Source of the DNA: Methanomassiliicoccaceae archaeon | Lineage (GTDB): Archaea; Thermoplasmatota; Thermoplasmata; Methanomassiliicoccales; Methanomethylophilaceae | DNA: 46,929 bases | Direction of reading: 5' to 3' | NCBI GenBank assembly: GCA_003550345.1 | Contig: PUJZ01000030.1 | Coordinates: forward strand, 1 to 46,929 | Shown: in pieces, positions 14,255 to 24,940 of the stretch | How positions within the stretch are numbered: position 1 is the first letter of the stretch | Layout of the letters: each line of letters begins with the position of its first letter | Translations under genes and position numbers: made by a program | The notes under the pieces: model-generated | Seen by the model: the letters and a program-made list of their open reading frames with translations, nothing else | Told to the model about the DNA's origin: nothing | Database searches by the model: none

Positions 14255-15301
14255 CTATTGCCTTATCAGCGCTGTCCTCCGGACGTTGCCGGAGCGGAAC
14301 AGCAGGTCGCAGATTGGGTCCGAGCCCTGATGCTCGAAAGCCACCAGGTCGGCCGGACCTCCCTTTGCCATCGGTAACTCCGATTGAAGATTTAATAGCT
14401 TTCTCGGGGAGAGGAAAGCGGCGGAGAGGGCGAGGCTGGCATCCGCCTGCTGTGAGCGGAGCAACCTGGCCATGCACTCCATCTCGGCGCGCATGTCGCC
14501 GTCGCAGTTCATGAAGTTGTCGGTGCCCAGGGCCAGCTCCATCCCCGCCTCGGCCATCCTCGCCAGCGGCGGCACCAGGCCCATGAACAGGTTGCTGCGC
14601 GGGCATACGACGGTGCTGAGGCCCTCGTCGGCGACGCGGCGCATGTCGGCATCGCTGGCGGAGCACATGTGCACCAGGAAGGACGGCTGCAGCGAGAGGA
14701 CGGCCTCGATGTCCTCCCGGCGGGCCTCGCTGACATGGAGGGCGAAGGGGCGGCCCGCCTGGCGGGCATGCTCCGCCAAGGCCTCCAGGTCGCGGGGCCT
14801 CCAGTCAGATACGGCGGAGACCCCGATGCCGTCGCAGCTGCGCAGCAGGCGCTCCACCTCCTCCTCGTCGTAGCTGAGCCCCGCCGGCCTGCCCATGATG
14901 ACCGGCGACGGGGGGCCGCGCAGCGAGCGCAGCGCCGCCGAGCCGCGCTCGCCCCCCTCGCGGAAGTCGATGAAGCGCGAGGTGCCGGAGCGGAGCATCA
15001 TGTCCATGGCCCTCCGCATGGAGGCCCGTTGCGAGTCTTCGTCCATGGAGCCGAGCTGTCGGTGCTTGAGGCCGTGAGGGGGGGCCACCAGCTCCTCCAG
15101 GGGCAGGGAGAGGTCGAGGCGCACGTCCGCGTCCGCAACGTGGGTGTGGCAGTTGATGAACGATGGTGTAATGATTCCCCGCAGCACCGGCCGCTGGGGC
15201 GGGTCGCCGTCCCCCGTCTCGACGATGGCGCCCCTCTCTATCCCGAGATGCCCCTCGCGGAACCCGTCCGGTCCCAGTATGTGGCCGGCGACATACCTCA
15301 T
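14255..15301 (-). CDS. Amidohydrolase-superfamily metal-dependent hydrolase/deaminase
   Basis: This 348-aa protein belongs to the amidohydrolase superfamily of TIM-barrel hydrolases. The metal-binding HxH is CHTHV with His52 and His54. Further ligands are likely the histidines in FALHVSEARRED and LVHMCSAS and the aspartate in LALGTDNFMN. It resembles the cytosine deaminase/ATZ-TRZ group, but I cannot name the substrate. A TATATA box A lies about 24-30 bases upstream of ATG 15301. It ends in TAG, one of only two amber stops in the window, and the frame then runs directly into uspA. Promoter-proximal gene of the uspA-CBS-glyS cluster. Confidence 0.8.
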   Translation of the reverse strand: MRYVAGHILGPDGFREGHLGIERGAIVETGDGDPPQRPVLRGIITPSFINCHTHVADADVRLDLSLPLEELVAPPHGLKHRQLGSMDEDSQRASMRRAMDMMLRSGTSRFIDFREGGERGSAALRSLRGPPSPVIMGRPAGLSYDEEEVERLLRSCDGIGVSAVSDWRPRDLEALAEHARQAGRPFALHVSEARREDIEAVLSLQPSFLVHMCSASDADMRRVADEGLSTVVCPRSNLFMGLVPPLARMAEAGMELALGTDNFMNCDGDMRAEMECMARLLRSQQADASLALSAAFLSPRKLLNLQSELPMAKGGPADLVAFEHQGSDPICDLLFRSGNVRRTALIRQ

Positions 15302-16011: not shown

Positions 16012-16947
16012 TCAGGCCCAGTACGGCTTCTTCACGAACTTGTAGGCGCTGTTGGCGGCGGTGGCGGCCTCCCCGCAGGCGGTCACGATCTGCCGGTACT
16101 TGCCCTTGTAGATGACCACGTCGCCGCAGCCGAAGACCCCCGGCCGGGAGGTCCTCATGTCGCTGTCCACTTTGACGAGGCCGTTCTCGTCCAGATCGAG
16201 CCCCCAGTCCTTCAGGTGCTCGAGGTCGGGGGTGTTCCCGATGTTGATGACCACCAGGTCGGCGGGGATGTCCAGGGTCTCACCTCCCTTCTCCACCGTG
16301 ACCGACTCCACCCGGGAACCGCCGTTGATGGAGAGGGGCACGGTCTCCAGCATGCATCTGACCGTGCTTTTGGAAAGCGATTCGACGACGCTCTCATCGG
16401 CGCGGTAGCAGTCGCGGCGGTGGACGAGCACCGTGTCGGCGACGCTGTCGGCGATTATGGCCATCTCCAATGCGCTGTTGCCTCCGCCGATCATGACCAC
16501 CCTCTTGTCCACCAGCTTGTCCTTCTCCGGCAGGACGTAGCCCACCCCCCGGCCGCTGAGCTCCTCCTCCCCCGGTACGCCCAGTCGCCGCGGCTTGAAC
16601 AGCCCCATGCCTATGGCGACGACCACCGCCTTGGAGCGGCGCTCGCCATCGTCGCAGCCGACCACGAAGCAATCCCCGTCACGGTCGACCCTGAGGACGC
16701 GGCAGCCCTCGGCGATCTCGCACCCCATGGACTCCGCGTGGGCCACCAGCCTCTCCGATAGCTTCTTGGCCTGGACCTCGGCGAAGCCGGGGTAGTTGTG
16801 TATCCCCTTGTCCGGATAGAGGCTGACCAGCTGGCCGCCCGCCGCCGCCGCATCCAGGACCAGGGTCTTCATCTTCCTCGACCTGGCATATATCCCGGCG
16901 GTGAGTCCGGCGGGGCCAGCGCCGATGACGATGAGGTCGTGCATCAT
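16012..16947 (-). CDS. Thioredoxin-reductase-like flavoprotein lacking the CxxC (ferredoxin-NAD(P) reductase-like)
   Basis: The 311-aa protein has the two-dinucleotide-fold layout of thioredoxin reductases: FAD motif IVIGAGPAG near residues 5-13, NAD(P)-binding MIGGGNSALEMA in the middle, and the C-terminal FAD-contact GVFGCGDVV. The redox CxxC expected just before the second fold is missing; that segment reads GVGYVLPEKDK. This matches TrxR-like ferredoxin-NAD(P) reductases (YumC type) more than true TrxR. A TTATTATA box is centred 26 bases before ATG 16947, so the transcript is probably leaderless; much longer upstream frame is not used. Neighbouring ferredoxins fit an electron-transfer role. 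Confidence 0.8.
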   Translation of the reverse strand: MMHDLIVIGAGPAGLTAGIYARSRKMKTLVLDAAAAGGQLVSLYPDKGIHNYPGFAEVQAKKLSERLVAHAESMGCEIAEGCRVLRVDRDGDCFVVGCDDGERRSKAVVVAIGMGLFKPRRLGVPGEEELSGRGVGYVLPEKDKLVDKRVVMIGGGNSALEMAIIADSVADTVLVHRRDCYRADESVVESLSKSTVRCMLETVPLSINGGSRVESVTVEKGGETLDIPADLVVINIGNTPDLEHLKDWGLDLDENGLVKVDSDMRTSRPGVFGCGDVVIYKGKYRQIVTACGEAATAANSAYKFVKKPYWA

Positions 16948-16969
16948 CGGTCTTCCAACCGGTACAATG

Positions 16970-16977
16970 TATAATAA
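16970..16977 (-). promoter_or_regulatory. Box A for the TrxR-like flavoprotein
   Basis: Minus-strand TTATTATA is centred 26 bases before ATG 16947, predicting transcription to begin at the start codon. Confidence 0.5.
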
Positions 16978-17038
16978 TTTTGTCCAGTGCCCCGGACGCC
17001 CCTCCATAGCCCTGGTTGAGGGCAAAGTGGGAGGGGAC

Positions 17039-17053
17039 ATTCCTAACAGGAAT
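17039..17053. promoter_or_regulatory. Palindrome upstream of the ferritin box A
   Basis: ATTCCT-AAC-AGGAAT is a perfect 6-bp inverted repeat with a three-base spacer, in the divergent region between the flavoprotein and ferritin genes. Its end is about 14 bases upstream of the ferritin box A, a position suited to a regulator or activator site. Confidence 0.4.
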
Positions 17054-17067
17054 CTGGGAGGCGGGAA

Positions 17068-17078
17068 AACCTTAAATC
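17068..17078 (+). promoter_or_regulatory. BRE/box A of ferritin
   Basis: AAACCTTAAAT lies about 40 bases before the ferritin ATG at 17113, predicting a start near 17099 and a 14-base leader containing GAGGT. Confidence 0.45.
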
Positions 17079-17094
17079 GGTTCTGCCGCAATCG

Positions 17095-17708: not shown

Positions 17709-18173
17709 ATGTCGGCATTGGCCACCAGCGTCGCTTTGGCTTTCGTTATAATCGGGATACTGCTTCTGATAACCGAGGCGGTAAGCCCCGGCACGTTCTT
17801 GGTGGTGCCAGGTACGGTGCTGCTCATACTGGGCGCCATCGGCTTGATATATCCCCCTCTGCTGCTCAGCTGGTGGGCGCCGCTCATTGCTGGCGTGGTG
17901 ATGATACCCACGACCATACTGACGATCAAGTTCTATCAGAAGCTGGGGGAGCCCATCCCTCCTACGACAACGGTGTCGAGTTCACTTATAGGACGCACTG
18001 GAACCGTGACCGTTAAGGTCGTGCCAGGGACCCTGCGGGGCAAGGTAAGGGTCAGCAACGACACCTGGAGCGCGACCTCGGAGAGCGATATAGAGGCGGG
18101 GGCCAAGGTCAAAGTGGTGGGCAGCGAAGGGGTGCACATAAAGGTGGCTCCCCTCGAAGAGGAGGTTAACTGA
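17709..18173 (+). CDS. NfeD-like membrane protein with OB-fold domain
   Basis: The 154-aa protein begins with two to three hydrophobic helices across residues 5-75, including the NfeD-typical EAVSPGTFLVVPG segment. It ends with a soluble OB-fold-like domain (LIGRTGTVTVKVVPGTLRGKVRVSNDTWSA). NfeD proteins pair with SPFH/stomatin proteins in membrane microdomain or proteolytic quality control. This gene precedes the SPFH gene by two bases, the classic arrangement. It lacks the ClpP-like protease domain of long NfeD proteins, so it is the short class. Confidence 0.9.
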   Translation: MSALATSVALAFVIIGILLLITEAVSPGTFLVVPGTVLLILGAIGLIYPPLLLSWWAPLIAGVVMIPTTILTIKFYQKLGEPIPPTTTVSSSLIGRTGTVTVKVVPGTLRGKVRVSNDTWSATSESDIEAGAKVKVVGSEGVHIKVAPLEEEVN

Positions 18174-18175
18174 AA

Positions 18176-19294
18176 ATGGTAGCAGCAATAGCGCTTGTCA
18201 TATTCGTGATAGTTGCGGTCCTGGTCATACTGGTCAGCGGCGTGAAGATCGTCCAGCCGTACGAGCAGGCCATATACATGAGGCTAGGTAAGTACATCAA
18301 GACGCTCGACCAAGGTTTCAACGTGGTCGTGCCGCTAATAAACGAGGTGGTGAAGCTGGACCTCAGGACCCAGGTCCTGGATGTCCCCCGCCAGGAGGTC
18401 ATAACCAAGGACAACTCCCCGGTCTACGTGGACGCGGTCATCTACACCAAGGTCATCGACCCGGTGAAGGCGTTCTTCGAGGTCACCAACTACCGCACCG
18501 CCACCATGTACCTGGCGCAGACCACCCTGAGGTCTGTCGTCGGCGAGATGGAGCTCGACCAGATATTCTCCAACCGCGAGAGCATCAACCTGCAGCTCCG
18601 CGACACCCTCGACGAGAGCACCGACAAGTGGGGCGTCAAGGTCGAGGCGGTGGAGATCCGCGAGGTGGACCCCGCGGCCCGCGTCAAGGAGTCGATGGAG
18701 GAGCAGACCTCGGCGGAGAGGAAGAGGCGCGCCGCCATCCTCGAGGCGGACGGCAAGAAGAGGGCGGCCATCCTCGAGGCCGAGGGAAAGAAGAGGGCCC
18801 GCATCCTCGAGGCCGAGGGCGTGCGCCAGTCGAAGATCCTCGAGGCCGAGGGAGAGAGGACCGCCATCGTGCTGCAGTCCCAGGGAGAGGCGCAGAAGCT
18901 GCGCATACTGTCGCTGGGCGCTTCCACGCTGGACTCCAAGGCCATCACCGTGCTGTCGCTGGAGACCCTCAAGGGCCTGGGCGAGGGAGAGGCTTCGAAG
19001 TTCTTCTTCCCCATGGAGCTCACCCGCCTCGCGCAGGGCATGTCCGAGTACATGGGCACCGGCACCGCCGTCCCCGAGAGGGGCATCTCGGACCTCAAGG
19101 ACCTCACCAAGGCCCTCGGGCTCCCCGAGGACCTGCTCGGTCCAGTTCCGAGGGTGGACGACATCCGCGCCCAGGCCGACGCCATGACCGAGGACCTGGA
19201 GGAGGAGATGAAGGAGTCCGCCAAGATAGCCCAGAAGGCCAGCAAGGCCAGCAAGGAGGATGTCGAGGAGCTCATCCGCGATCAGAAGGAGTGA
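18176..19294 (+). CDS. SPFH/stomatin-family membrane protein
   Basis: This 372-aa protein has one N-terminal membrane helix (residues 3-22), then the SPFH domain (VQPYEQAIYMRLGKY through VEIREVDP). A coiled-coil region follows, with five consecutive 11-residue repeats of the form RAAILEAEGKK near residues 185-239. The C-terminus is a variable acidic/basic tail rich in AQKASKASKED. SPFH proteins assemble rings or scaffolds on the membrane. GAGG in the end of the NfeD gene serves as a ribosome-binding site. The NfeD-SPFH pair implies a membrane quality-control complex. Confidence 0.93.
   Translation: MVAAIALVIFVIVAVLVILVSGVKIVQPYEQAIYMRLGKYIKTLDQGFNVVVPLINEVVKLDLRTQVLDVPRQEVITKDNSPVYVDAVIYTKVIDPVKAFFEVTNYRTATMYLAQTTLRSVVGEMELDQIFSNRESINLQLRDTLDESTDKWGVKVEAVEIREVDPAARVKESMEEQTSAERKRRAAILEADGKKRAAILEAEGKKRARILEAEGVRQSKILEAEGERTAIVLQSQGEAQKLRILSLGASTLDSKAITVLSLETLKGLGEGEASKFFFPMELTRLAQGMSEYMGTGTAVPERGISDLKDLTKALGLPEDLLGPVPRVDDIRAQADAMTEDLEEEMKESAKIAQKASKASKEDVEELIRDQKE
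18728..18892 (+). repeat. Five 33-bp in-frame repeats in the SPFH gene
   Basis: Five consecutive 33-base units encode 11-residue repeats: RAAILEADGKK, RAAILEAEGKK, RARILEAEGVR, QSKILEAEGER and a degenerate TAIVLQSQGEA. The 11-residue period suits a right-handed hendecad coiled coil. Similar repeats occur in other stomatin-like proteins. Confidence 0.8.
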
Positions 19295-19362: not shown

Positions 19363-19995
19363 ATGCGCGAGAACTACATGCACGGCGATGACGACGCCGA
19401 GGCGCTGCTGCAGGGGCTGGAGGGACGAGGGACGAGGCCATGGTCCCTCCAGGCGAGACCGGCGCTGCTGGTCATGGACATGCAGTCGTTCTTCCTTGAC
19501 GAGTGCTCCCCTGCCTTCCTGCCATCGGCCCCGGCGATGCTGCCGCGCTTGGGCCTGCTGGTGGAGAGCTTCCGCGCCCGGAGGCTCCCGGTGATATTCA
19601 CCGTCCATCGGGACCGCGGCGGCCCGATGCAGCGTTGGTGGGGCCGCAGCCTGGACGAGGAATGGCACCAGGCGCTGGCCATAGAGCCCCTTGAAGGGGA
19701 GGAGGTGCTGGTCAAGGACGTCTACGATGCCTTCTGCGGCACCGGCCTCGAGGCCGCGCTGGAGAGGGCCGGGGCGGGGTCGCTGGCGCTGAGCGGCGTA
19801 TGCGCCCATCTCTGCGTGGAGTCCACCGCCCGCTCCGCCTTCTGCCGCGGGTACCAGGTGGTCCTGCCCGCCGACTGCGCCGCCGCCCACAACCTCGCGC
19901 TGCACCGTGGGTCCCTGGCCTCATTGGCCCACGGTTTCGCCCACATCACCACATGCCAGGAGCTCATCTCCAAGCTGGAGGGCCATCATGGTTGA
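19363..19995 (+). CDS. Isochorismatase-like cysteine hydrolase
   Basis: The 210-aa protein has the cysteine-hydrolase triad of the isochorismatase/nicotinamidase superfamily. Asp39 is in LLVMDMQSFF, Lys118 in LVKDVYDAF, and Cys151 in GVCAHLCVESTAR. The nicotinamidase metal-binding DxHxxH is not evident, so an amidase or related hydrolase on an unknown substrate is more likely. The ATG has GGGGGA four bases upstream and a TTTTTAACC box A about 35 bases upstream. Its stop overlaps the next ATG by eight bases, making it the first gene of the flavoprotein/radical SAM/cyclotransferase operon. Confidence 0.85.
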   Translation: MRENYMHGDDDAEALLQGLEGRGTRPWSLQARPALLVMDMQSFFLDECSPAFLPSAPAMLPRLGLLVESFRARRLPVIFTVHRDRGGPMQRWWGRSLDEEWHQALAIEPLEGEEVLVKDVYDAFCGTGLEAALERAGAGSLALSGVCAHLCVESTARSAFCRGYQVVLPADCAAAHNLALHRGSLASLAHGFAHITTCQELISKLEGHHG

Positions 19996-20851
19996 GATGG
20001 CGGTGATCGGCGGCGGCCCGGCCGGCATGGCGGCGGCGCTGCAGTGCTCGCGCTCGGGCATCGAGACGGTGCTCTACGAGCGTCAGGAGCTGGGGGGCCT
20101 GCTGAGGGAGGCGAACCTGGTGGAGAACTACCTGGGCTTCCCCGGCGGCGTCAGCGGCCACGAGCTGTGCTCGCTGTTCTCCGAGCAGATGCGCCTCCAG
20201 GGGGTGGAGGTCCGTCGGGAGGAGGTCGTCTCCCTGGATCACGACGGCGAGCTCTTCGTCATCGGCACCGCCTGCGGGGAGGAGAGGGCGGAGATGGCCG
20301 TTCTGGCCACGGGCACCGTGCCCTCCCCGCCCGGCCAAGGCCTCGATGCCGACCAAGAGCTGGTGTTCGACAGCGTGATCCCTTTGGCGGAGAGGGAGGG
20401 CCTGCACGTGGCGGTGCTCGGCGGCGGTGACGCCGCCTACGACTACGCCCTGCGGCTGTCGGCGGCCAACACGGTCACGATAATCAGCCGCTCCCTGCCC
20501 CGTTGCCTCCCGCTGCTGAGGTCGAGGGCGGAGGGCTCTCCGTCGGTGTCGTTGATGGACCGCAGCGCGCTCACGGCCCTGCGCAAGGCTGAGGGCCAGG
20601 TGTCCATCGAACTGATCACGGACGGCAGGCCGAGCGTGCTCGAGGCGGACGCGTTGCTGCTGGCGGTGGGTAGGGAGCCTGACGACGCCCTTCTCCGGGG
20701 AGGCCTCGGCGGCCTGTCGGAATCACTTATCAAGGATGGCGTGTTCTACATCGTGGGCGACGTCGTCAACGGGCCGCGGAGGCAGGCGTCGATCGCCGCC
20801 GCCGACGGCATCAGGGCGGCGATGGGTGCCCGGGAGGCGAGGGGACTATGA
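19988..20851 (+). CDS. FAD-dependent oxidoreductase, TrxR-like without CxxC
   Basis: The 287-aa protein has an N-terminal FAD motif AVIGGGPAGMAA and a second dinucleotide fold AVLGGGDAAYDYA. The TrxR-type motif YLGFPGGVSGHEL is retained, and the C-terminus has YIVGDVVNGPRRQ. As in the other flavoprotein of this window, the CxxC dithiol is absent; the equivalent region reads LDADQELVFDSVIPLAEREG. It may hand electrons from NAD(P)H to an external acceptor such as ferredoxin, flavodoxin or the downstream radical SAM enzyme (inference). ATG 19988 is used because the longer frame runs inside the hydrolase gene. It overlaps both neighbours. Confidence 0.8.
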   Translation: MVEMAVIGGGPAGMAAALQCSRSGIETVLYERQELGGLLREANLVENYLGFPGGVSGHELCSLFSEQMRLQGVEVRREEVVSLDHDGELFVIGTACGEERAEMAVLATGTVPSPPGQGLDADQELVFDSVIPLAEREGLHVAVLGGGDAAYDYALRLSAANTVTIISRSLPRCLPLLRSRAEGSPSVSLMDRSALTALRKAEGQVSIELITDGRPSVLEADALLLAVGREPDDALLRGGLGGLSESLIKDGVFYIVGDVVNGPRRQASIAAADGIRAAMGAREARGL

Positions 20852-21774
20852 TGGAGGTGCTGGCATCCACAGGGAGGGACGATCTGGCCACGGTATATGT
20901 GGCCCAGGGCCCCCGCGGCCGCCGCCTGGAGTTCGTGGAGTCGGTGCAGCCCCCGCTGACGCGGGAGGAGAAGTGGGTGCTAATCATATCCACCCTCTAC
21001 GGCTGCCCGGTGGGATGCCGGTTCTGCGACGCCGGCGGCTCCTATCACGGACGGGTGGCGAAGGACGAGATGCTCGCCCAGCTCGACCACATGGTCCTCC
21101 GCCGCCATCCTGACGGCAAGGTCCCCTCTAATAAATTCAAGGTCCAGTTCTCCCGCATGGGCGAGCCCTCCTTCAACGATGAGGTGATCGAGACCATGCA
21201 GGAGCTGCCCCGGCGCTATGACGCCCCGGGGCTGATGCTCTCCCTGTCCACCGTGGCCCCCGCCGGCAGGGACGCCTTCTTCGAACGTCTGCTGGATGTG
21301 AAAAGGGAGCTTTACCAGGGTCGTTTCCAATTCCAGTTCTCCCTGCACAGCAGCGATGAGGACAGAAGGTCCTGGCTCATACCCCGCAGGACCTGGAGCA
21401 TGGAGCGCATGGCCGCCTATGGGGCCGAGATGCGCCGCGGCGACAGCCGGAAGGTCACATTGAACTTCGCCGTGGGCGAGGGCAACGAGATCGACCCGGA
21501 CGCGCTGCTGCGCCACTTCGAGCCCCGCGACTTCGTCATCAAGCTCACCCCGGTCAACCCCACCCACAACGCCATGAGCAATCGTATCCGCAACAGCCTG
21601 GACAACGGGCTGGCGGAGAGCCTGGGCCAGGCGGGATACGATGTGATCCTCAGCATAGGCGAGGCCGAGGAGAACCTCATCGGCAGCAACTGTGGACAGT
21701 ACCTGAAGGCGTACGAGTCGTCCGGGGAGCTCCCCGGCGGCTACCGCTATCCCCTGCAGGACCTGAGAGGATGA
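20848..21774 (+). CDS. RlmN/Cfr-like radical SAM protein
   Basis: The 308-aa protein carries the radical SAM cluster motif C-x3-C-x2-C at Cys53, 57 and 60 (GCPVGCRFC). RlmN-like landmarks follow: RMGEPSFND (MGEPLLN in RlmN), SLSTVAP, SLHSSDEDRRSWLIP, and SNCGQYL near Cys282, which aligns with the ACGQL methyl-carrying cysteine. The other RlmN catalytic cysteine, normally seven residues before the first cluster cysteine, is isoleucine here. The N-terminal RlmN domain is also short. It may therefore not be a standard 23S rRNA/tRNA adenine methylase. It overlaps both flanking genes by four bases. Confidence 0.75.
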   Translation: MMEVLASTGRDDLATVYVAQGPRGRRLEFVESVQPPLTREEKWVLIISTLYGCPVGCRFCDAGGSYHGRVAKDEMLAQLDHMVLRRHPDGKVPSNKFKVQFSRMGEPSFNDEVIETMQELPRRYDAPGLMLSLSTVAPAGRDAFFERLLDVKRELYQGRFQFQFSLHSSDEDRRSWLIPRRTWSMERMAAYGAEMRRGDSRKVTLNFAVGEGNEIDPDALLRHFEPRDFVIKLTPVNPTHNAMSNRIRNSLDNGLAESLGQAGYDVILSIGEAEENLIGSNCGQYLKAYESSGELPGGYRYPLQDLRG

Positions 21775-21897
21775 GCGTCCCGCACGCCTTGTACGGGACC
21801 CTGCGCCGCGGCGGAGCCCTGCACCGCGCCTACCGCATAGACGAATGTCAGCATATGGGCGAGGCGAGGGTGCCCGGCTACGCGCTGGTCGTCTGCC

Positions 21898-21903
21898 CTG
21901 GAG
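21898..21903. repeat. Left target-site duplication
   Basis: CTGGAG directly precedes the left end of the insertion sequence and is repeated directly after its right end. Confidence 0.85.
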
Positions 21904-21921
21904 CCTGACTTCGACAGTTTG
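21904..21921 (+). repeat. Left terminal inverted repeat of the IS
   Basis: CCTGACTTCGACAGTTTG is the exact reverse complement of the right end at 23561-23578. Confidence 0.93.
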
Positions 21922-22017
21922 AACTTGTGAATATTGCGTTCTAGGAAATCTCGACAGTTGGCGTTCGCTAAGATAGCGACAATGAATCACGACTATTTGT
22001 CCGAGGAACGGGGCCTT

Positions 22018-23478
22018 TTAGGCCCCGTTCACCCCCGGTTCTATCAGGATCTCCCGCAGAATCGCGGTATTGAGGGGTTCAAAGTTGGAGAACAGCCGCT
22101 TTGAACGCCCCGTCGAGTCGAAAATGTGCGAAACTGTCAGATTTTCTAGAGAACGGATGACGAATCTTGTTGATTTCTTCCGCAGCGAAGGGTTCTCGAA
22201 GCGGATCATGGAGACTATGAGTTGAGCTAGGAAACCGAGCAGCAGCACACCGCGTATGGAGCTGTCTGACCATACCCTGAGGGGCTTGATGTTTATGTGG
22301 TTCTTGAGGGACTCGATGAGCTTCTCCACGGTGTCCTTTCTCCGATAGATGTCGTACACCTCGGTTGCTGTCAAATCCGTCGACGATTCAATCTTAAAAA
22401 ATCCCTCCCGGTGGTTCATGATCTTCTCCTTCGCGTACTCGAACATCGCATCCTCGCCGTCGAAGAACGCTTGTTGCACGTAGATGCTCACCGAGAGGAG
22501 GGGATTGAATTTCTTGACCACGGTCTTGGATATCCGCAGTTTTCCCTTCTTCGAGTACAGAACGGCGTCCTTGGCGTCGCGCACGCAGCGGCGTGCGCGC
22601 CCCTCCACGGACGCCATCTTCATCTCGTAAAGTGCGCGAGAGAAGAACAGGTACACCGTTCGTCCTGAGGATTCGTAAGTGTGCTTCACACAGCACAGCC
22701 CTCGAGCCTCATCCACGATCTCAATCTCATCCCACTTGAGTTCGGCGATACGTCTGTCGTCGCTCTTGTTCATCTTCTTCCTGGTGATATGGCGCATGCC
22801 GTGGTCGGCGATCCTGTCCAAGTTCTTCTTCGAATCACCGCCGGCGTCGAAGACGAACGTGGAGTCGGGACGCATGTGGTCGACGACGTTCTCAATGATG
22901 TTCAGGAACTGGATGGGGTCGGCGGTGTTGCCCTTGTCCACCGTCAGGTCGATGGGCAGGTTTATCGGATATCTGAGCTCCGCTACGCCGAAGTTCACCT
23001 GCTCCAGGTGGGCAAGGTGCCCACGGGGGAAGCCGTGGGCGCCTAATGGGCTCTTCCGTCCGTAGACCGCTACGGACGTGGTGTCGATGTTCACGTCCGT
23101 ATGTTCCAAAGAGTACATGGAGAACAATCGCTCACGCACAGCTTGCAGTATCTCGGTCATGTTGTCGCCGATGATCTCCACAGCACGGTTCAAGGTCCGC
23201 GAGCTCACTTTTCCCTTGATGCCCAGCTCATGCCGCACCTCCGCGGACTTCAACCATCGTCCGCATCCTTCGATGGAGAAGTTCTCCGTCAAGCGGTAGC
23301 AGATCAACGCGGCAGCGAGCGCGGAGAGCTCGCTGCCCCGTCCCTTGAACTTCGGGAACAAGGAGTCAAGCTCCAGCTTGCGCATGAAATGCAGCACCGC
23401 AGCAATCGTTCCAATCGGAATTGACTTATTGTCGTTCGTCTCTACTAGATTCGTCCTGAGTTTAGTTTGTGTTGTCAC
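22018..23478 (-). CDS. IS1634-like DDE transposase
   Basis: The 486-aa protein is full-length. Likely catalytic acids are the Asp in NIDTTSVAVYG, the Asp in FVFDAGGDSKKNL, and the Glu in RRKDTVEKLIESLKNH, the latter within a YxIYRRKDTVEK-type Y-R-E-K block of IS4-superfamily transposases. The following HINIKPLRVWSDSSIRG and LLLGFLAQLI segment resembles the IS1634 group. It has no frameshift and stops with TAA, in contrast to the host's TGA preference. It lies antisense to the interrupted gene. Confidence 0.88.
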   Translation of the reverse strand: MTTQTKLRTNLVETNDNKSIPIGTIAAVLHFMRKLELDSLFPKFKGRGSELSALAAALICYRLTENFSIEGCGRWLKSAEVRHELGIKGKVSSRTLNRAVEIIGDNMTEILQAVRERLFSMYSLEHTDVNIDTTSVAVYGRKSPLGAHGFPRGHLAHLEQVNFGVAELRYPINLPIDLTVDKGNTADPIQFLNIIENVVDHMRPDSTFVFDAGGDSKKNLDRIADHGMRHITRKKMNKSDDRRIAELKWDEIEIVDEARGLCCVKHTYESSGRTVYLFFSRALYEMKMASVEGRARRCVRDAKDAVLYSKKGKLRISKTVVKKFNPLLSVSIYVQQAFFDGEDAMFEYAKEKIMNHREGFFKIESSTDLTATEVYDIYRRKDTVEKLIESLKNHINIKPLRVWSDSSIRGVLLLGFLAQLIVSMIRFENPSLRKKSTRFVIRSLENLTVSHIFDSTGRSKRLFSNFEPLNTAILREILIEPGVNGA

Positions 23479-23560
23479 AAATACAAATAACTCTCAGGAC
23501 ACATTATTTCTTCCTATAGCTCGTTCCAAAAAACACTACCCAGAATAATGACTAGGGATG

Positions 23561-23578
23561 CAAACTGTCGAAGTCAGG
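23561..23578 (-). repeat. Right terminal inverted repeat of the IS
   Basis: CAAACTGTCGAAGTCAGG mirrors the left end exactly. Confidence 0.93.
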
Positions 23579-23584
23579 CTGGAG
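23579..23584. repeat. Right target-site duplication
   Basis: CTGGAG follows the right inverted repeat and matches the left flank. Collapsing the two copies restores the host reading frame. Confidence 0.85.
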
Positions 23585-23821
23585 AGCGGTTCCCCCGCGC
23601 GGTGCCGCGCCGGGGGAGCTCCATCGCTGCGGAGCTGTATCTGCTGCCGCCCCGCACGGCCGAGGCCGTGCGTTCGATGGAGGAGGCCGCCGGATATGCG
23701 CTGGAGCCGGCGACCGCGATCACCGATGAAGAGGAGATGGAGGTGAAGCTGTTCGTGCACCTCGGCCCCTGGCACGGTTGCGAGGAGCTGGCTGACGGCG
23801 ACTGGTCGTCGCGCCTGGACA

Positions 23822-24916
23822 TCAGTCGCCGTTGAGCCCCTCGAACCTCTCCACGATGTCGTTCACGAGGTCGTTCTGGAAGTAGTTGTAGTAGATGAAG
23901 ATGTAGATCATGGCGACGCAGACGGCTATGAGCAGGTAGAGGAAGTACATCGAGGCGATCTCCATGAGCGTGGTTATCTGCAGAGCAAGTACCAAGAGCA
24001 GTACCACGGTCCCCCAGCCCAGGAATCCCATGATGGTCTTCTTGAACCCCTTACCGAGATGGAAGTCGCGGCAGGGGTTGACCGCCCGGGCGTTGACGTC
24101 TATGACGACGGAGAACGGGAATATTGCCACCGGTATGAACAGCGACGCCCCTATCGCCAAGGACACCAGGTCGACGGTCTCGGTCTGGTTCAGGAAAAGC
24201 GGGTTGAGCAGCACGTATGAGGGTATGAGCACCGCGAAGTACATGATGAAGAGGAAGTTCTGTTTCAGCTTGTCATAGGGGAAGTTCTGCCTTTCAGGCA
24301 CGGGGCCGACCTCCACCCGGTGGATGTCTATTATGGAGGGGATCGAGAAGGTGCCCATGGCCATCCTGTTCCTCCGCGATCGGTCCTGCGTGTCCATCCT
24401 CCCCACGTAAGCCAGCAGCCGGGGTATGTCGCGCCGCAGCAGGGCGCAGGCCACCCCGATGACCCCGAAGGCTATCATGAAGGCCAGGATGAAGGTGGCC
24501 AGTATCATCACGAAGGACATCAGCAGGTCGAGCAGCAAGTGCTCCCCGGTGATCTCCGGCTGCAGATTGTAGTGGAGGTCTATGCCCATCCCCATCAGCA
24601 GCACCGCCCCCACGGACGCCAATAACACCAGGGCGGCCACGATCAGCCAGAGGCTGATGTTCCTTATGTATCCCCGGTCGAACCTTTTCACGTAGAGGAG
24701 GATGCCGAGGACGAAGAAGTAGACCATCAACACGTCAACGAGCAGATTGAGGAAGGAGGTCATGCCAAGGCTCCTGAATCCGAGGGCCAAGTAGACCAAA
24801 GTGAAAAGGAGGGCCAACGGCAGCACGACATAGAACGTCCTGATCAGGACCCGGTCCAGTTCTATCCTCTCTTCCATCGGCTCGGGGGCGATGTCCCGAG
24901 GTCTCAACAGCCCCAT
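23822..24916 (-). CDS. Unknown polytopic membrane protein
   Basis: About 364 aa with roughly nine hydrophobic helices. A charged cytoplasmic-looking segment in the middle (MDTQDRSRRNRMAMG and PVPERQNFPYDKLKQN) separates two membrane halves, and a short acidic tail ends ERFEGLNGD. I do not recognise a family. A TATATA box at 24941-24946 is centred about 28 bases before ATG 24916, favouring that leaderless start over the GTG at 24928. Its 3' end overlaps the convergent cyclotransferase fragment by 14 bases. Confidence 0.65.
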   Translation of the reverse strand: MGLLRPRDIAPEPMEERIELDRVLIRTFYVVLPLALLFTLVYLALGFRSLGMTSFLNLLVDVLMVYFFVLGILLYVKRFDRGYIRNISLWLIVAALVLLASVGAVLLMGMGIDLHYNLQPEITGEHLLLDLLMSFVMILATFILAFMIAFGVIGVACALLRRDIPRLLAYVGRMDTQDRSRRNRMAMGTFSIPSIIDIHRVEVGPVPERQNFPYDKLKQNFLFIMYFAVLIPSYVLLNPLFLNQTETVDLVSLAIGASLFIPVAIFPFSVVIDVNARAVNPCRDFHLGKGFKKTIMGFLGWGTVVLLLVLALQITTLMEIASMYFLYLLIAVCVAMIYIFIYYNYFQNDLVNDIVERFEGLNGD

Positions 24917-24940
24917 CGTCCAGGGCACGGCTATAGGGCT

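Follow-up and report, generated by a model that had tools for sequence, protein, structure and literature searches.

The window analysed here is a stretch of 46,929 nucleotides from a Methanomassiliicoccaceae archaeon (GenBank assembly GCA_003550345.1, contig PUJZ01000030.1, positions 1 to 46,929), and the subject of this work is a set of three overlapping plus-strand reading frames within it, designated HYD, FLAV and RSAM:

19363..19995, + strand: HYD, isochorismatase-superfamily cysteine hydrolase, 210 aa (PF00857, 4e-36; triad D39-K118-C151)
19988..20851, + strand: FLAV, thioredoxin reductase (TrxR)-like FAD/NAD(P)H flavoprotein without a CxxC dithiol, 287 aa (ATG at 19988; TIGR01292)
20848..21774, + strand: RSAM, RlmN/Cfr-like radical S-adenosylmethionine (SAM) protein, 308 aa (C53/C57/C60 in CxxxCxxC, plus C282)

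HYD and FLAV overlap by 8 bases and FLAV and RSAM by 4 bases, and a fourth start codon at 21771, also on the + strand, overlaps the end of RSAM by 4 bases. An earlier note on this DNA had described a four-gene operon at 19363-23835, in which the fourth gene was likened to gamma-glutamylcyclotransferase (GGCT). Its overlaps of 8, 4 and 4 bases are borne out by the coordinates, and its gene families by profile matches, that of the GGCT-like gene through an intact sister copy in genome G104. As for the operon itself, the three-gene core stands and the fourth gene does not: it is broken by an insertion sequence (IS), position 23835 lies past the transposon, and the intact overlapping genes in the window are three only.

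We conclude with strong confidence that HYD, FLAV and RSAM form one functional unit, because of their gene order, their overlaps, their co-occurrence and the conservation of catalytic residues in each of the proteins. A survey covering 84,980 species, mostly represented by metagenome bins with mechanical gene calls, returned 469 RSAM relatives; the best 80 were examined, a choice that favours close relatives. HYD, FLAV and RSAM were adjacent and in this order at 56 of these 80 loci, usually with overlaps of 4-22 bases among the core genes. The FLAV-RSAM pair was present at 72 loci, that is, the 56 with the trio and 16 more, in 7 of which the contig stops short of HYD. At 4 of the remaining loci RSAM stood at the edge of a contig, and the last 4 were scored as RSAM alone, although one of these (L081) has all three genes, FLAV and RSAM being separated by an additional frame. 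Bacteria and Archaea are both represented among the 56 trio loci, which come from at least 15 named phyla (about 14 to 15, with one phylum-less class counted), the phylum names being taken from record titles of bins that may be mixed; Chloroflexota, Cloacimonadota, Fermentibacterota, Krumholzibacteriota, Eiseniibacteriota, Thermoplasmatota and Methanobacteriota are among them. Relatives were also seen in Methanoculleus sp. FWC-SCC1 and Methanogenium sp. MK-MG, neither of which has a record marked as a metagenome bin. Of the 22 genomes without an adjacent HYD, 14 had a HYD gene of at least 190 bits elsewhere, several of these as HYD-FLAV pairs and some at contig ends.

Within the host order, RSAM was detected in 10 of 147 genomes from three families, each with HYD and FLAV adjacent and in the same order. 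Profile searches of the same 147 genomes recovered the HYD subfamily in 11 at E<1e-60 (next match 1e-27) and the FLAV subfamily in the same 11 at E<1e-49 (next match 1e-44); the eleventh genome, G137, carries the first 46 RSAM residues at a contig end. The trio is thus together in 11 genomes of the order, and no core gene occurs alone. The conservation of gene order, which the earlier note had proposed to look for across Thermoplasmatota, accordingly holds for the first three genes in 11 of 11 positive host-order genomes and, at the 56 of 80 loci given above, well beyond that phylum; it fails for the fourth gene, which was found beside the core nowhere outside the window's genus and is missing from one of four genus members. 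A first RSAM tree split the host order in two. Two separate acquisitions were considered and withdrawn, since the constrained tree had the better score and a single clade was not rejected by an approximately unbiased (AU) test (p 0.71). In the Anaerolineae, RSAM was present in 3 of 249 genomes, all three of which also encode HYD and FLAV. The trio is therefore an accessory trait of patchy distribution.

It could be argued that unrelated genes have merely been held together by compact operon structure and carried about by transfer, as the patchy spread (10/147 in the host order, 3/249 in Anaerolineae) and the variable flanks would allow. Such a coincidence is barely plausible: the genes co-occur also where they are unlinked, over at least 15 phyla, so that the present counts lean against chance, and their catalytic residues are strongly conserved. 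A gene set that stays together over such a range of bacterial and archaeal phyla and preserves its catalytic residues almost certainly has one defined job, and that job has apparently been described by nobody. The earlier note knew of no described system joining these families, and our literature search likewise found no published description of the HYD-FLAV-RSAM trio, most subscription journals lying outside its coverage. No PADLOC model for anti-phage defence matched any of the three core proteins, and a defence-system reading was dropped on that account. Each of the three also scored under every NCBIfam equivalog cut-off.

The best profile matches of RSAM were PRK14464 (2.7e-12, 46 bits) and RlmN (4.6e-9), all below cut-off; the RlmN family score was 35.7 bits against a cut-off of 290, and the RlmN match begins at about position 94 of 355, indicating that the N-terminal RNA-binding domain is absent. 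By score and domain content RSAM thus does not qualify as an RlmN rRNA/tRNA methylase. The AlphaFold2 model (predicted local distance difference test score, pLDDT, 91.6) was nearest by Foldseek to 6fz6, E. coli RlmN and Cfr. RSAM has in common with RlmN/Cfr the fold (Foldseek 1e-14 to 1e-8), the CxxxCxxC motif, a GEP motif and a carrier cysteine in a CGQ loop, and differs from them in the replacement of the second cysteine, the loss of the N-terminal RNA-binding domain, an identity of 17-22%, scores below all family cut-offs and a shared operon with HYD and FLAV.

The reaction of class A enzymes employs a pair of conserved cysteines: RlmN C355 carries the methyl group, while C118 in RlmN (C105 in Cfr) is reported to be indispensable (reviewed in PMC9692996). 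RSAM has the RlmN/Cfr fold with CxxxCxxC (C53, C57 and C60 in 86/86 sequences) and a predicted methyl-carrier cysteine, C282, which corresponds to RlmN C355 and stands in a conserved GSNCGQ loop in 86/86. The second cysteine is not there: at the site of RlmN C118, aligned by hidden Markov model, 85 of 86 RSAM sequences have I, L, M, T or V. RSAM therefore falls outside class A as defined by two cysteines; it is RlmN-like in fold and, presumably, in its first half-reaction. A C118A variant of RlmN traps a covalent protein-substrate adduct (PMC9692996), from which it follows that naturally occurring single-cysteine enzymes such as RSAM must rely on a different base or catalyse another reaction. 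Of the two cysteines considered essential to the chemistry of RlmN and Cfr, RSAM has retained one and lost the other, and so it offers a directly testable question, namely how chemistry of this type is completed without the second cysteine.

These features bear on whether RSAM is simply an aberrant RNA methylase (m2A-type, acting on rRNA or tRNA) that FLAV keeps reduced, with HYD unrelated. In favour of this, the nearest solved structures are those of RlmN and Cfr, and RSAM retains the counterpart of C355 along with the general layout of the active site. We nonetheless hold this account quite unlikely, given a protein that has no RNA-binding N-terminal domain, lies far under every RlmN/Cfr family cut-off, lacks the indispensable cysteine in nearly all sequences and is tied by gene order to a hydrolase and a flavoprotein.

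HYD has the D-K-C triad and the PF00857 model of the isochorismatase-superfamily cysteine hydrolases. D39, K118 and C151 were invariant in a 23-row alignment; among 60 neighbourhood homologues each of these residues is shared by at least 90%, and C151 by all 60. The nearest profile was that of the EntB isochorismatase 2fq1 (1.2e-32). The superfamily model and triad are common to EntB, YecD-type and N-carbamoylsarcosine amidase-like hydrolases, with the difference that EntB has a glycine where HYD keeps its nucleophile C151; HYD is further set apart from known isochorismatase-like hydrolases by an N-terminal motif of its own (K..YFTPETI) and by scores below the equivalog cut-offs. A selenium trait with an isochorismatase-like protein has been described (PMC9312934) and is noted as a lead only.

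FLAV matched Pyr_redox_2 and TRX_reduct profiles (TIGR01292 1.5e-33, under cut-off), and its AlphaFold2 model (pLDDT 88.7) was best matched by Foldseek to thioredoxin reductases (1e-24). It shares with these enzymes the FAD and NAD(P)H domains and the ENY.GF and GD..RQ motifs, and a GxGDxAxDxA nucleotide motif is retained among its homologues. It differs from them in the missing CxxC dithiol: no conserved cysteine pair was found across 71 homologues, and the single cysteine C173 is present in only 52 of them. FLAV is thus not a thioredoxin reductase in the sense of an enzyme with a redox-active CxxC in its NADPH domain. A second TrxR-like flavoprotein at 16012-17091 of the window is likewise without CxxC, the sequence GVGYVLPEKDK replacing the CATC of TrxR; this protein is perhaps a TrxR-type ferredoxin/flavodoxin reductase and is kept in the genus beside a ferritin-like gene.

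The fourth reading frame is interrupted because an IS1634-family element with target-site duplication CTGGAG sits at 21904-23578. The features of this region are as follows:

21771..21903, + strand: 5' remnant of the GGCT-like gene (GGACT, PF06094); 45 codons, then a stop in IS sequence
21898..21903, no strand: target-site duplication CTGGAG, left copy, 6 bp
21904..23578, no strand: IS1634-family insertion sequence, 1675 bp, with perfect 18-bp terminal inverted repeats CCTGACTTCGACAGTTTG
22018..23478, - strand: IS1634-family DDE transposase, 486 aa (NF033559, 6.9e-51, above cut-off)
23579..23584, no strand: target-site duplication CTGGAG, right copy
23579..23835, + strand: 3' remnant of the GGCT-like gene

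The element belongs to the IS1634 family by its transposase (173.7 bits against a cut-off of 100), its 18-bp terminal inverted repeats and the 6-bp duplication; a single copy was seen in the draft genome, in which assembly may collapse repeats. The gene 4 frame ends after 45 codons, within IS sequence, and its PF06094 domain is not intact. When the flanks were joined with one CTGGAG duplicate removed, a 127-aa frame without a stop was restored, and the intact sister copy in G104 matched GGACT PF06094 at 3.7e-12 (47.3 bits against a cut-off of 22.8). Of the four core-bearing members of the window's genus, G104 and G105 have an intact GGCT-like gene, G108 has none, and the window genome has the interrupted copy; a GGCT relative turned up beside the core at none of the 77 loci inspected outside that genus. 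The GGCT gene is a genus-specific add-on, dead in the window genome through a transposon, and a four-gene unit was rejected for these reasons.

The earlier note had offered, as one hypothesis, a modification pathway on a gamma-glutamyl or amide-containing molecule. Its gamma-glutamyl version hangs on this gene and finds no comparative support. A four-gene pathway of that kind could cite the 4-base overlap of GGCT with RSAM and its presence in three of the four core-bearing genus members; with GGCT at 0/77 loci outside the genus, missing from G108 and IS-broken in the window, we regard it as very improbable, and for the conserved module as largely refuted.

The genes flanking the trio differ from lineage to lineage, and the trio is therefore a unit of its own. 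The only recurrent functional hint from the neighbourhood, a weak one, is corrinoid/one-carbon (C1) metabolism. At L027, L032, L057 and L078, and by coordinates also at L052 and L070, the gene immediately upstream of HYD is of the MttB family; these associations need 4 changes on the RSAM tree, the deep branching of which is not settled. MttB-MtgC corrinoid methyltransferase systems are codirectional with HYD at these six bacterial loci and are missing from over half of the module-bearing genomes tested. Several MttB loci add an MtgC-like corrinoid protein, a PF02574 homocysteine methyltransferase and a Met_synt_B12-like (methionine-synthase activation-like) protein, and the MttB-HYD loci resemble a folate-free split methionine-synthase module. 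By eye, genes of carbon monoxide dehydrogenase/acetyl-CoA synthase (CODH/ACS), CooC or DUF3786 adjoin the module at L051, L081, L092, L083 and L086, which belong to Anaerolineales, Bipolaricaulota and Syntrophaceae. Genome-wide, MttB was present in 23 of 50 RSAM-positive genomes tested, CdhD in 14 and either in 31, as raw counts; an obligate tie to MttB or CODH/ACS was rejected, these counts giving a universal one no support. Scans of 32 trio loci and of the window for cobalamin and SAM riboswitches, made at gathering thresholds, came back empty, and control by a cobamide or SAM riboswitch was dropped. In one Syntrophaceae genome, an adenine deaminase gene (L120:9466-11166) directly follows HYD-FLAV, with RSAM elsewhere beside CooC.

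These neighbourhoods suggest that the module might serve corrinoid-dependent C1 metabolism, for example by producing a cobamide lower ligand with a modification of the 2-methyladenine type or by processing the product of an MttB-family demethylase. The recurrent placement of MttB before HYD, the corrinoid and methionine-synthase-like proteins that accompany it and the adjoining CODH/ACS genes or CooC all speak for such a role. It is unlikely all the same, as most lineages show no link, HYD is given no part to play, and both the genome counts and the riboswitch search run counter to it.

Our preferred reading, held tentatively and at somewhat under an even chance, is that HYD, FLAV and RSAM constitute an undescribed three-enzyme pathway for the one-carbon modification of a small molecule, distributed patchily in anaerobic bacteria and archaea. 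We infer the one-carbon modification and the small molecule from the chemistry of the families, and the pathway may act on an amide-containing compound. RSAM would place a methyl group from SAM onto C282, and a second SAM would turn this methyl into a methylene radical, which RSAM would then add to an sp2 carbon of a free small molecule and not of RNA; the role of C118 would be taken by another residue or by a partner. FLAV would use NAD(P)H to give or take electrons, its target being the 4Fe-4S cluster or a pathway intermediate, and HYD would cleave an amide-like (or vinyl-ether) bond of a precursor or product by means of D39-K118-C151. The GGCT gene is a lineage-specific extra, lost in the window strain to the transposon. 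With a little more reserve, RSAM may be proposed to represent a new radical SAM reaction class, in which an RlmN fold performs one-carbon transfer from a single carrier cysteine, with no second catalytic cysteine, at the core of a hitherto unknown three-enzyme pathway for a small metabolite or cofactor common to anaerobic bacteria and archaea.

Several points weigh against the small-molecule pathway. The order of the reactions and the small-molecule target are our own reconstruction. RNA may be the substrate of RSAM even without the N-terminal domain, and FLAV could equally be a general reductase. Five of the 22 genomes without an adjacent HYD, all drafts, show no HYD at E<=1e-15. HYD-like genes occur without RSAM in Anaerolineae G210 and G242, with fragments in G373 and G350, and HYD may therefore have a use of its own.

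Other neighbours of the module are confined to particular lineages. NfeD and/or SPFH (stomatin) genes adjoin it in the window's genus (17709-19294 in the window) and at L061, L072, L090 and L096, which are Eiseniibacteriota/Acidobacteriota loci, and biotin-type genes were seen by eye near it in Fermentibacterota. Biotin-type, NadA, SPFH/NfeD and metal-transporter neighbours were set aside as lineage-limited and without a common theme. In Melainabacteria/Cyanobacteria a small conserved protein (~105-111 aa, KA.SHCLNL.CKK) is encoded directly before HYD (L123:4009-4323 and L124:7940-8275). Two further genes of the window are conserved near the module in the genus: an amidohydrolase of adenosine/cytosine deaminase-like type (PF01979, 2.3e-15) at 14255-15301, and, at 23822-24928, a putative membrane protein (368 aa) that matches no Pfam family and adjoins the module in 4/4 genus members.

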